Origin: Halorubrum ruber
Lineage (GTDB): Archaea > Halobacteriota > Halobacteria > Halobacteriales > Haloferacaceae
DNA: 64,000 nucleotides
Direction of reading: 5' to 3'
NCBI RefSeq assembly: GCF_018228765.1
Contig: NZ_CP073695.1
Coordinates: forward strand, 2,046,001-2,110,000
This document shows, piece after piece, positions 5,422 to 61,960 of the stretch (position 1 is its first letter; every line of letters begins with the position of its first letter). The translations under genes and the position numbers were made by a program. The notes under the pieces were generated by a model, which saw only the letters and a program-made list of their open reading frames with translations, searched no databases and was not told the origin of the DNA.

Positions 5422-5564
5422 ACCTGTCGAAAGTATGGTTGCCCCTCCGGAAAATTAATTCGATGTGGTCTCTGGTTCGGACAGAACTGTATTCGTTCTA
5501 ACAGAGATCGAGACGCAGCATCCATCTACCGGCCGTTTCACTTGAGATAGTACTTATAAATTAG

Positions 5565-5572
5565 AATTTCAT
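5565..5572. repeat. 8-bp target-site duplication, left
   Basis: AATTTCAT directly before the left terminal inverted repeat; the same 8 bp recur at 6217-6224 directly after the right one. 8-bp duplications are typical of IS6-family transposition. Confidence 0.85.
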
Positions 5573-5749
5573 GGCTCTGTTGAAATCCTTAGGAAGTGAC
5601 ACACTTTGACCAGGGCGTGGTCAGTATAGCGGTAGCGGTGAGCGATAGCGGGAGTACGTGTAGTACGTCGTGAGTGAGGTCATTTATAAACCAGAGTGCG
5701 GTGTTGCTGTCGGCTGTTTATAAGTGACTGACGCCACCGCGGCGAGTGT

Positions 5750-6070
5750 CTCCAAAGCCCCAGCCGGGAGGGCGTCGTACGCTCGCTGTCGTTCGAAAGG
5801 CGCGAAGCGCCTTTCGTGATGACGAGAGAGCTTTGCTCTCTCGAACCACGCTCCTCGGTCGCTCACTCCGTTCGCTCCCTGCGGTGCTTACGTCGCCTAC
5901 GACGCCCTCACGGCTGCCCCTTTGAGTCCCGCCCCACACAGCGACCGCACCTCACGCCTCCCCAACCTCGCCGCTCACGCCCTGCGGGCGTTCGCGGCGT
6001 CCCTCGCGCGTGCGACTCGCGCCCTCCGGGCGCTCGTCGGCACGCGCCACCGCACTCCTTTTATAAGCGC
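5750..6070 (-). ncRNA. putative structured RNA, copy 1
   Basis: RNA sense is minus. P1 is 6006-6047: GCGCGTG/CACGCGC, CGAC/GTCG, a GA/GA loop, GCGCCC/GGGCGC, GGA triloop. P2 is 5970-5998: GCCGC/GCGGC, GA/GA, ACGCCC/GGGCGT, GCA triloop. P3 joins 5898-5926 with 5750-5779: CTC/GAG, AAAG/CTTT, GGG/GGG internal loop, CAGCCG/CGGCTG, then 12 further pairs (GAGGGCGTCGTA/TACGACGCCCTC). Inside P3 are extra hairpins, GAGAGAG/CTCTCTC and GAAAGGCGC/GCGCCTTTC. The likely start is near 6070, ~26 nt after the AATTTAAATA box (6091-6100); a closer CTTTTATAAG box (6058-6067) would start inside P1. Start and end are inferred. Confidence 0.7.
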
Positions 6071-6100
6071 TCGTCGCCGTGGCTCACGGCAATTTAAATA
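6058..6100 (-). promoter_or_regulatory. tandem TATA boxes of RNA copy 1
   Basis: AATTTAAATA at 6091-6100 and CTTTTATAAG at 6058-6067 (minus-strand promoter). The same pair at 24-26 nt spacing precedes the RNA core in all four copies, which argues that it is functional. Confidence 0.6.
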
Positions 6101-6216
6101 CTGAATCGCTGCTACCGATCTGCGATACTCACTCCCGAAACCGATCGAAAAGCACCATTCAGCGACCGGGTGTTTCATCCTAATTTATATTTGAAGAATA
6201 GGGTTTCAACAGAGCC

Positions 6217-6224
6217 AATTTCAT
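6217..6224. repeat. 8-bp target-site duplication, right
   Basis: AATTTCAT, identical to 5565-5572. Confidence 0.85.
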
Positions 6225-28905: not shown

Positions 28906-29033
28906 TTGGAAGCCAAATCGAATTTTCGACGACGCCGATCGGTAAGTGATACATTCTGACCGGGGCGTGGTCAGTACAGCGGTAGCGGCGAGCGACAGCG
29001 GGAGTAGGTATCGCAGCTCGGTGGCGACGAGCG

Positions 29034-29075
29034 TATTTAAATAGCCGCGAGCGACGGCGACAAGTGCTTATAAAA
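29034..29075 (+). promoter_or_regulatory. tandem TATA boxes of RNA copy 2
   Basis: TATTTAAAT at 29034-29042 and CTTATAAAAG starting at 29067, spaced as in the other copies. Confidence 0.6.
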
Positions 29076-29376
29076 GGAGTGCGGTGGCGCGCCTCCGAGC
29101 GGCCGGAGCAAAGCGGAGGCCGCGAGCCAGCCCGCGAGGGACGCCGCGAGCGGAGCGAGCGGCGAGGCTGGGGAGGTGTGAGGCTGCGGTGCTGTGCGGA
29201 GTGGGTGGGACTCAAAGGGGCAGCCGTCGAGGCGGGCGGAGGCGATGTAAGTAGCGTGGCGCTACGCGCCACTGAAAGCCGGCGGCGAAGCCGCCGGCGA
29301 CACCGCAGGAACGAGCGAAGCGAGTGACGAGGAGCACAGCGAGCGTCCGCCCGCCTCGACGGCTGGGGCTTTGGAG
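29064..29376 (+). ncRNA. putative structured RNA, copy 2
   Basis: P1 at 29099-29123 is GCGGCC/GGCCGC with GA on both sides. P2 at 29143-29163 is GCCGC/GCGGC, GA/GA, GC/GC, GGA triloop, a shorter version of copy 1. P3 joins 29211-29240 and 29346-29376: CTC/GAG, AAAG/CTTT, GGG/GGG loop, then 20 uninterrupted pairs (CAGCCGTCGAGGCGGGCGGA on the 5' side). Copy-specific hairpins inside P3 are GTGGCGC/GCGCCAC and GCCGGCGGC/GCCGCCGGC. Ends are inferred from the shared sequence. Confidence 0.7.
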
Positions 29377-29556
29377 GCACTCACCGCAGTAGCGTCAGTC
29401 ACTTATAAACAGCCGACAGCAACACAGCTATTCTCCTTATAAATGGCCTCACTCACAACCTACGACACCTACTCCCGAAACCGATAAACAAGCACCATTC
29501 AGCGACCAGGTGTTTCATCCCAAGTTATATTTGAAGAATAGGGTTTCAACAGAGTC

Positions 29557-30449: not shown

Positions 30450-30624
30450 TGGGGCCGGAGGGATTTGAACCCCCGATCGACTGATATCTCCGGTGCGCCT
30501 CGGAACTCCAGAGGGTCGTCAACACGACCGATGATCAGTCGGCCGCTCGGTATATCAGTCTGGAGTGTCGTCCCGGGCGCAAGCCTCTGGAGTCAGTCGC
30601 CATGCCTGGCTTGGCCACAGCCCC
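30450..30624 (-). tRNA. tRNA-Trp (CCA) with ~100-nt intron
   Basis: The 5' exon runs from GGGGCTGTGGCCAAGCC to the anticodon loop CTCCAGA; the 3' exon ends GGGGGTTCAAATCCCTC and CGGCCCC plus A73. All seven acceptor pairs form. The insertion after the anticodon is about 100 nt, typical for haloarchaeal tRNA-Trp, whose intron is known to carry a C/D-box guide for methylation of the tRNA itself; I did not confirm the boxes one by one. Exact splice sites depend on the bulge-helix-bulge and are not marked. Confidence 0.93.
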
Positions 30625-44376: not shown

Positions 44377-44494
44377 ACCGCGAGCGACAAGCGATAGTGG
44401 GAGTTGTCGAATTGGAGTAATTGCGTGGTTGTTTATAAGTGGATTTTCGGTTCCGTTGCCGGCCTTTTATAAGCGATAGACGAAGCGGTGAACG

Positions 44495-44630
44495 CCTCTG
44501 AAGGCCCGGCCACTCGTTTATAAATGAGTTGCCTCAGATCGGCAACGAACGCCTCCAAAGCCCCAGCCGCTCGCTTATAAATCGTTGATTCCGAGTCGAC
44601 GCCGAACACTTCCAAAGCCCCAGCCGCGAG
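44495..44630 (-). repeat. 57-bp tandem array of the RNA 3' end
   Basis: Three units with period 57. In RNA sense each begins GCGGCTGGGGCTTTGGAGG (third unit diverged to GTGGCCGGGCCTTCAGAGG) and includes GTTCG... and a TTTATAA box. The unit at 44609 on is the one paired in P3; the other two lie downstream and lack a 5' partner strand. Confidence 0.75.
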
Positions 44631-44869
44631 GCGGCCGCACGCTCGCTGCGCGCTTCGGTCGCTCGCGCTGCTCGCTCCCTCCAGTGCTTGCGTCGCCTGC
44701 GCCCGCCTCGCGGCTGCCCCTTTGAGTCCCACCCCGCACCGCTCCGCACAGCACCTCACACCTCCCCAACCTCGTCGGCCTCCCTGCGGTCGGCCGACTC
44801 CCTCGCGCGTGCTGCTCGGCCGCGAGACGGCCTCGCAGGCACGCGCCGCCGCACCGCTCTTTATAAGTA
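44610..44869 (-). ncRNA. putative structured RNA, copy 3
   Basis: P1 at 44805-44846: GCGCGTG/CACGCGC as in copy 1, but CTGC/GCAG instead of CGAC/GTCG and GGCCG/CGGCC instead of GCGCCC/GGGCGC; GA/GA kept. P2 at 44774-44798: GTCGGCC/GGCCGAC, GA/GA, CC/GG, GCA triloop. P3 joins 44698-44726 and 44610-44639 with CTC/GAG, AAAG/CTTT, GGG/GGG, CAGCCG/CGGCTG and 12 of 13 further pairs. These replacements keep pairing at every step. Box TATTTAAA at 44891-44898 sets the start near 44869. Confidence 0.72.
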
Positions 44870-44898
44870 ATCATCGTACTCGCTCGCAATTATTTAAA
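44861..44898 (-). promoter_or_regulatory. tandem TATA boxes of RNA copy 3
   Basis: TATTTAAA at 44891-44898 and TTTATAAG near 44860-44867 on the minus-strand side, same spacing as the other copies. Confidence 0.55.
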
Positions 44899-44907
44899 CA
44901 CCGTTCG

Positions 44908-61145: not shown

Positions 61146-61373
61146 GCGGGTCGACGGGGTCGGAGTGAAGCGGTTTTGACGGCGAGGGCGGATCGAACCC
61201 CGCCGCCGGCGAAACGCGACCGAATCGGATGCCGACCGATCGTCGGAAGGCGACAGCGCGGATCTGTTGGAATGATTTGTCAGGGGTAGGTTCCCGCTGA
61301 AATGGCCGGCCGCTGAGCGCCGCTTCTTGACCGGTTGCGGGAGGAGTATCTCAGATCGGCTGCCGCGATGAAG

Positions 61374-61414
61374 TATTTAAATAGTCTTGAGCGACAGCGG
61401 CGATCGATTATAAA
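61374..61414 (+). promoter_or_regulatory. tandem TATA boxes of RNA copy 4
   Basis: TATTTAAAT at 61374-61382 and TTATAAA at 61408-61414. Confidence 0.6.
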
Positions 61415-61678
61415 TGCGGCTGCGGTCGGCGCGCCTGCGAGCGGCCGGAGCGAAGCGGAGGCCGCGAGCCAGTCCGCGAGGGACGCCGCGAACGCCCGAA
61501 GGGCGTGAGCGGCGAGGTTGGGGAGGCGTGAGGTGCGGTTGCCGTGCTGGGCGGGGCGGGACTCAAAGGGGCAGCCGCGAGGCCGACGTAGGCGACGCAA
61601 GCACTGGAAGGAGCGAACGAAGTGAGCGACTGAAGCGCGCAGCGAGCGTACGTCGGCCTCGCGGCTGGGGCTTTGGAG
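61404..61678 (+). ncRNA. putative structured RNA, copy 4
   Basis: P1 at 61441-61465 is GCGGCC/GGCCGC flanked by GA on both sides. P2 at 61485-61513 is GCCGC/GCGGC, GA/GA, ACGCCC/GGGCGT, GAA triloop. P3 joins 61562-61590 with 61649-61678: CTC/GAG, AAAG/CTTT, GGG/GGG loop, then 19 perfect pairs beginning CAGCCGCGAGGCCGACGTA. Compared with copy 1 the outer P3 pairs change from GGGCGTCG to GGCCGACG with matching changes on the other strand. No large extra hairpins inside P3; the simplest copy. Confidence 0.72.
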
Positions 61679-61960
61679 ACGTTCACCGCCGCAGCGTCGG
61701 TCACTTATAAATAGCCGACAGCAACACCGCGGTCCAGCTTATAAACAACCACGCCATCACACTGAGCGGCGTACTACACGTACTCCCGCGATCGCTCGCC
61801 GCTACCGCTCTACTGAGCGATTCGTGATCCACCCGCGTTGACCGGGACCTCGCTAGTTCGACTCGCTGTCTGCGGATCTCGACAGGACGAATAAAAGAGG
61901 CCGACGCGAAACGGAACGGAACGGAACGACGCGCTGCGACCGCGGAAGGGCAGTTCTCGA

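Follow-up and report, generated by a model that had tools for sequence, protein, structure and literature searches.

A repeated cassette with an RNA-like core lies in either orientation between the arms of a MITE-like element in a Halorubrum chromosome

The window analysed here is a stretch of 64,000 nucleotides (positions 2046001–2110000) from a Halorubrum-type chromosome, a single contig of 3.02 Mb. As listed in Table 1, it holds four copies of a composite element, in which outer arms (L and R) border an inner cassette of about 480 bp that runs from CGGGAGT to ACTCCCG. In the L arm of copy 2 the outer ~17 bases, including the terminal repeat, are eroded; the repeat is still recognisable in the ortholog of this copy in H. 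distributum. The window also contains a tRNA gene (Rfam match) at 30450–30624 on the minus strand, whose 175-base span suggests an intron.

Table 1. Positions of the element copies and of their parts within the window
Feature	Position	Strand	Evidence or detail
Copy 1, left 8-bp target duplication AATTTCAT	5565–5572	.	same 8-mer at 6217–6224
Copy 1, L arm, TIR GGCTCTGTTGAAATCC, ends in CGGGAGT (5649–5655)	5573–5655	+	profile match 5572–5655, 72.9 bits
Copy 1, cassette CGGGAGT..ACTCCCG, type B	5649–6137	-	ACTCCCG 6131–6137; profile scans
Copy 1, cassette parts	i3 5649–5753, core ~5750–6052, i5 6044–6137	-	profile scans
Copy 1, R arm, ends in TIR ..TTTCAACAGAGCC	6132–6216	+	profile match, 75.8 bits
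Copy 1, right 8-bp target duplication AATTTCAT	6217–6224	.	read
R-arm remnant left by an older element, immediately upstream of copy 1	5505–5571	+	profile match, 31.4 bits
Copy 2, L arm, ends in CGGGAGT (28999–29005)	28938–29005	+	profile match, 59.0 bits
Copy 2, cassette, type A	28999–29477	+	heptamers 28999–29005, 29471–29477
Copy 2, cassette ends	i5 28999–29090, i3 29373–29477	+	profile scans
Copy 2, RNA-like core	29082–29376	+	profile matches 29082–29256, 29287–29376; paired changes in free copies
Copy 2, R arm	29472–29555	+	profile match, 69.3 bits
Copy 3, degenerate type-B element without R arm	44383–44907	-	profile scans
Copy 3, weak L-arm end with heptamer TGGGAGT	44383–44404		profile scans
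Copy 3, cassette parts	i3 44422–44498, core 44611–44851, i5 44843–44907	-	profile scans
Copy 4, R arm	61264–61343	-	profile match, 31.0 bits
Copy 4, cassette i5/core/i3, type B relative to arms	61339–61788	+	ACTCCCG 61782–61788
Copy 4, L arm, inner part	61782–61830	-	profile match, 36.9 bits

The L arm extends from GGCTCTGTTGAAATCC to GAGCGAT(AG/TT) and the R arm from CTATCGATCAAGAAGC to GGATTTCAACAGAGCC, the terminal inverted repeats being GGCTCTGTTGAAATCC and GGATTTCAACAGAGCC. Several copies are bordered by 8-bp target duplications (in copy 1, AATTTCAT on both sides), and empty orthologous sites were found in relatives. Given these duplications and empty sites, the outer element is, to judge from its sequence, a non-autonomous, MITE-like unit without transposase. 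The haloarchaeal MITEs described, for example, in Haloquadratum (PMC3119063) offer the natural comparison: they share the terminal inverted repeats, the target duplications and the absence of a transposase, but the present element appears to enclose a cassette that can be inverted and exchanged and that has a structured RNA-like core.

Two candidates for the parent of the arms were not convincing, namely an ISH6-type transposase adjoined by a related L arm in Halobacterium sp. DL1 and an IS6 element that is surrounded by the arms, and has its own repeats, in Halorubrum sp. PV6. An IS6-family transposase is a doubtful owner of the arms, both because it has its own inner terminal repeats at locus L169 and because the element at L180 sits amid pieces of an IS6 gene. 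At another locus, in H. distributum (G017 L106:2073–2812), the same arms with an 8-bp duplication, AGAGAAGT, carry an ORF in place of the RNA cassette; judged by eye, its product is a putative membrane protein. On many haloarchaeal plasmids, related arms stand beside methyltransferase, TIR-domain and other varied genes. The arms may be a cargo carrier.

Within the cassette, the i5 end (GAGTATCGCAGATC) is followed by TATA-like boxes, a core of ~250 nt, more TATA-like boxes and the i3 end (AGGTGTAGTACGTC). The predicted structure of the core is conserved, with changes on both sides of 22 of 58 predicted pairs among 17 copies, and these paired changes argue for a structured, RNA-like core. With the gathering cut-offs of Rfam, the core in the window matched no family. 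Beside free cores (window 44434–44620, and the right side of L031, L048 and L057) there are tandem units of ~58 nt that contain TATTTATAA and a repeat of the 3' end of the core (CTGGGGCTTTGGAG), indicating that the promoter-like boxes beside the core exist in several copies. A variable arm of the core (window 5750–5860; L043, L051, L059) repeatedly holds small hairpin inserts, among them GTTCACGAGAGC..GCTCTCGTGAGCC and GGCGCGAAGCGCC, which resemble miniature insertions into the RNA.

When copy 2 was used as a query, 74 matches were obtained in its own genome. The core motif CTGCCCCTTTGAGTCCC, with at most one mismatch, occurs 185 times in the genome (98 and 87 times on the two strands), and the motif written backwards, which served as a control, does not occur there at all. 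Thus there are ~185 copies of the core per 3 Mb, the majority without outer arms. Matches were present in 34 of 34 other Halorubrum species sampled; beyond the genus, a single weak match was found among 24 genomes. Relatives of the host genome include H. distributum JCM 10118 (G017; 97% identical at a 1.5-kb test region) and H. sodomense (G028). A search of a phage collection and of viral contigs for a possible viral origin yielded no match.

The initial annotation had claimed that the core is inverted relative to the outer ends between copies 1 and 2, with exchange points at CGGGAGT on the left and ACTCCCG on the right. Profile scans bear this out: the arms have the same order in both copies, the cassette is on the minus strand in copy 1 and on the plus strand in copy 2, and the exchange points fall on the two heptamers (Table 1). 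Copy 4 was likewise correctly described as following copy 1, its order being R-, i5+, core+, i3+, L-. When orientation was tabulated over all armed copies of the genome, 13 were oriented like copy 2 (type A) and 10 like copy 1 (type B), n = 23; one further copy, L009, was excluded from the tally for its weak arm call (15 bits). In essentially all of the 23 the orientation switches at the heptamer, of which one base is altered or missing in L010, L017 and L023. At the switch point the cassette ends read CGGGAGTgaGTATCGCAGATC (i5) or CGGGAGTagGTGTAGTACGTC (i3), beside either arm, and the perfect inverted repeat, when copies were compared by eye, measures just 7–11 bp. The occurrence of both types among 23 armed copies, with the same heptamer, means that the pattern is not due to chance. 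In other words, a segment bounded by inverted repeats occurs both ways round with respect to fixed flanks. In the CSM-61/lipolyticum clade there is an apparent bias toward type A, which the search pattern may have caused, two copies being B by their arm profiles.

Switching was seen between loci and also between species, each species being represented by one assembly. Five orthologous element loci have opposite orientations in related species: L012 (B, as in Atlit-26R) against L107 of H. distributum (A), L011 (B, as in G017 and G074) against L116 of G027 (A), L010 (A) against L218 of Atlit-26R (B), L016 (A) against L206 of Atlit-26R (B; the right flank is short) and, between two relatives, L207 of CSM-61 (B) against L209 of lipolyticum (A). 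A sixth locus, L047, is opposite in orientation to L102 of H. distributum. Two other opposite pairs, L029/L109 and L026/L068, were left uncounted, the copy in the host genome being truncated or having a different core. Orientation is the same across species at loci including L001, L003, L005, L007, L008, L009, L013 and L019. Wherever both flanks could be compared, the arms were never flipped relative to them, although the terminal repeats are longer than the heptamer.

For the L047 locus, 40 more genomes were read. In total, 16 species retain the cassette, whole or in part, nine with one orientation and seven with the other, a distribution for which the species tree needs 3–6 switches. Trees of the flank, of a distant conserved gene and of the two combined gave 6 switches each (shuffles, ~5.4), and starred branches force 2–3 of these. 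The outer sequence is common to both orientations and unchanged up to the heptamer; at the right edge, between-species identity is 0.93 for the heptamer and 0.61 for the next seven bases outside; no other part of the boundary is as well conserved as the heptamer. In the pair L011/L116 one side has no arm (the L arm is missing), and still the cassette flips at the heptamer, which implies that 7–8 bp suffice.

It had been proposed that the cassette is an invertible segment, or is recombined repeatedly across short inverted repeats, a view that would fall if the two orientations were separate, old lineages. A tree of 35 cassettes needs 11 changes of orientation under parsimony, and its starred branches alone force at least six; shuffled labels gave 12.0 changes, and 190 of 500 shuffles were as low as the observed tree. 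In Mantel tests orientation was unrelated to cassette distance (p = 0.12) and to L-arm distance (p = 0.93), with a weak trend for R-arm distance (p = 0.07). Together with the same-locus comparisons, the tree and these tests rule out types A and B as two old lineages, and the proposal held up. No significant relation was found between cassette distance and arm distance, whereas one half of the cassette agreed with the other (r = 0.65, p = 0.0001); the L and R arms agreed weakly (r = 0.24, p = 0.08), the test being limited by the shortness of the arms. Cassettes thus appear to be units that are reassorted among arms.

That the core is a module, as the initial annotation suggested, is apparent from copy 1 (L020) and L019 (at ~1.83 Mb, ~225 kb away), whose cassettes are 99.6% identical over 489 bp and whose arms are 67% identical: the identical block starts and stops exactly at the heptamers, between differing arms. 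For L016 and L025 the corresponding figures are 99.3% for the cassettes and 69% for the L arms. Cassettes are also replaced at fixed loci. The flanks of orthologous loci are mostly 89–97% identical and their cassettes often just 63–80%, in the same or in opposite orientation; in flipped orthologs the cassettes are mostly non-orthologous (63–77%). At L047, the cassette ends are mostly closer to cassettes from other loci than to the ortholog of another species. The exchange is exact at the heptamer in L047, L011/L116 and L019/L020. In L012/L107 and L010/L218 the exchanged tract extends ~25 bp into the arms, and L218 carries the L106/L007 type of sequence in its inner arm and at its end. Such tracts indicate that a donor of opposite orientation supplied the sequence, by gene conversion or by import, and in some flips, for instance L010/L218, a cassette that already faced the other way may have been brought in instead of one being inverted in place.

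Two processes are at work together: switching at the heptamer, across a shared stretch of just 7–11 bp, and the ectopic substitution of one copy's cassette by that of another. Site-specific recombination in trans combined with ectopic conversion fits the data best, and we give this explanation about an even chance of being right. According to it, the cassette would be a self-contained unit, its RNA-like core flanked on either side by TATA-like boxes, residing within non-autonomous transposon arms; recombination at the two heptamers would repeatedly turn it relative to the arms. The agent would most likely be a site-specific recombinase of the tyrosine/Xer type supplied in trans, for which the 7-bp heptamers, in inverted orientation, would form the crossover (overlap) region, and ectopic gene conversion or cassette exchange would replace cassettes at fixed loci and homogenise them within the genome. 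The outer sequence that is intact up to the heptamer at L047 and L011, and the missing arm at L011, indicate that the switch used 7–8 bp. This length is too short for ordinary homologous recombination and is typical of a tyrosine recombinase overlap, so that site-specific recombination is favoured. The overlap of the lambda tyrosine recombinase is 7 bp (PMC8371274), and a haloarchaeal virus integrase of the XerD type, that of phiCh1/phiH1, provides a precedent for inversion (PMC6210493).

No recombinase gene is encoded within the element. The host genome has six tyrosine recombinase-like genes (PF00589 matches), none of them tied to the heptamer sites, and no element arms were found at these six loci. 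In H. distributum, near the ortholog of copy 2, an ORF of 375 aa (G017:C49 L093:1856–2983, minus strand) reads like a phage-type tyrosine recombinase. Against the favoured explanation, the tracts that reach into the arms in L012/L107 and L010/L218 point to gene conversion, and a clean in-place inversion of one and the same cassette was not seen, the cassettes of flipped orthologs being mostly non-orthologous; that the switch is a reversible inversion in place is what we infer.

Next in rank after site-specific recombination comes an account that needs no dedicated enzyme: rare inversions, through template switching in replication or through microhomology repair, would arise between the short inverted repeats (7–11 bp perfect, ~20 bp imperfect), and conversion in a polyploid genome would spread the products. 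We regard this as possible but rather doubtful. Switching shows up only over the time that separates species, for which a rare process would be enough, and gene conversion is documented in polyploid haloarchaea (PMC8223754). However, a passive repeat leaves unexplained why the heptamer is so much better preserved than the bases around it, and the terminal repeats of these elements, though longer, did not turn whole elements around. It is less probable still, and on the whole unlikely, that one or a few ancient inversions created types A and B and that all later flips are ectopic conversions from donors of the opposite type, with tracts ending in the arms. This would account for the clustering of differences in L012/L107 and L010/L218 within the ~25 bp of each arm that lie nearest the cassette, for the L106/L007-type sequence of L218 and for the frequent replacement of cassettes at orthologous loci, but not for the locus-specific outer sequence of L047, intact to the heptamer in both orientations, or for the flip in L011/L116, where an L arm was not available as homology.

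We consider it very improbable that the cassette is mobile in its own right and inserts either way into a palindromic site of the outer element, even though it travels as a unit between unrelated arms, with ends exact at the heptamers, and the same outer arms occur without it. No target duplication stands beside the cassette, the bordering sequence being an inverted and not a direct repeat; no two arms were found that meet at the heptamer with nothing between them, and the arms that lack a cassette differ in their contents and inner ends. Insertion of the core into the outer element with a target duplication of its own was rejected, since the adjoining sequence is inverted and not directly repeated. 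Finally, repeats can be mis-joined during assembly, and several of the comparison genomes are drafts of 60–200 contigs, but such an artefact is hardly credible as the source of the pattern: both orientations are present in the host genome and in G027, which are single contigs, the identity at the switch points (7–11 bp) is far below assembly k-mers, and most cassettes differ by 10–30%, so that they are placed easily.

By analogy, the cassette may work like an inverton, without being a proven one. The bacterial invertons, such as fimS and the switches of C. difficile, likewise consist of a segment of a few hundred base pairs with promoter-like boxes and short inverted repeats that is found in both orientations. 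In the present case, by contrast, an archaeon has dozens of dispersed copies within a transposon-like repeat; the segment contains an RNA-like core, and there is ectopic exchange between the copies. In engineered Cre/Flp cassette exchange, too, two inverted sites border the cassette that is exchanged, and the incoming cassette may face either way; here, however, the system is natural, and the evidence includes copying and not strict exchange. The invertible region of phiCh1/phiH1 is a haloarchaeal case of inversion between inverted repeats, but it is a single viral locus that switches tail-fibre genes and encodes its own integrase, whereas there is no gene inside the cassette (PMC6210493). In the open-access literature, outside which most subscription journals lie, no description of this cassette family was found. 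As that literature gave only viral and bacterial cases, multi-copy invertible RNA cassettes in an archaeal chromosome appear to be undescribed.

A tentative extension of the favoured explanation, for which we hold out limited expectation, is that a trans-acting recombinase may keep flipping dozens of dispersed RNA-bearing cassettes, so that cells of the same culture would differ in the direction of RNA transcription near many genes. With the same-locus series across species, the question of flipping becomes a simple matter of PCR. As a natural model, the cassettes would allow site-specific inversion and the exchange of cassettes to be studied in haloarchaea; they would also provide a handle on an RNA-like family of ~185 copies.
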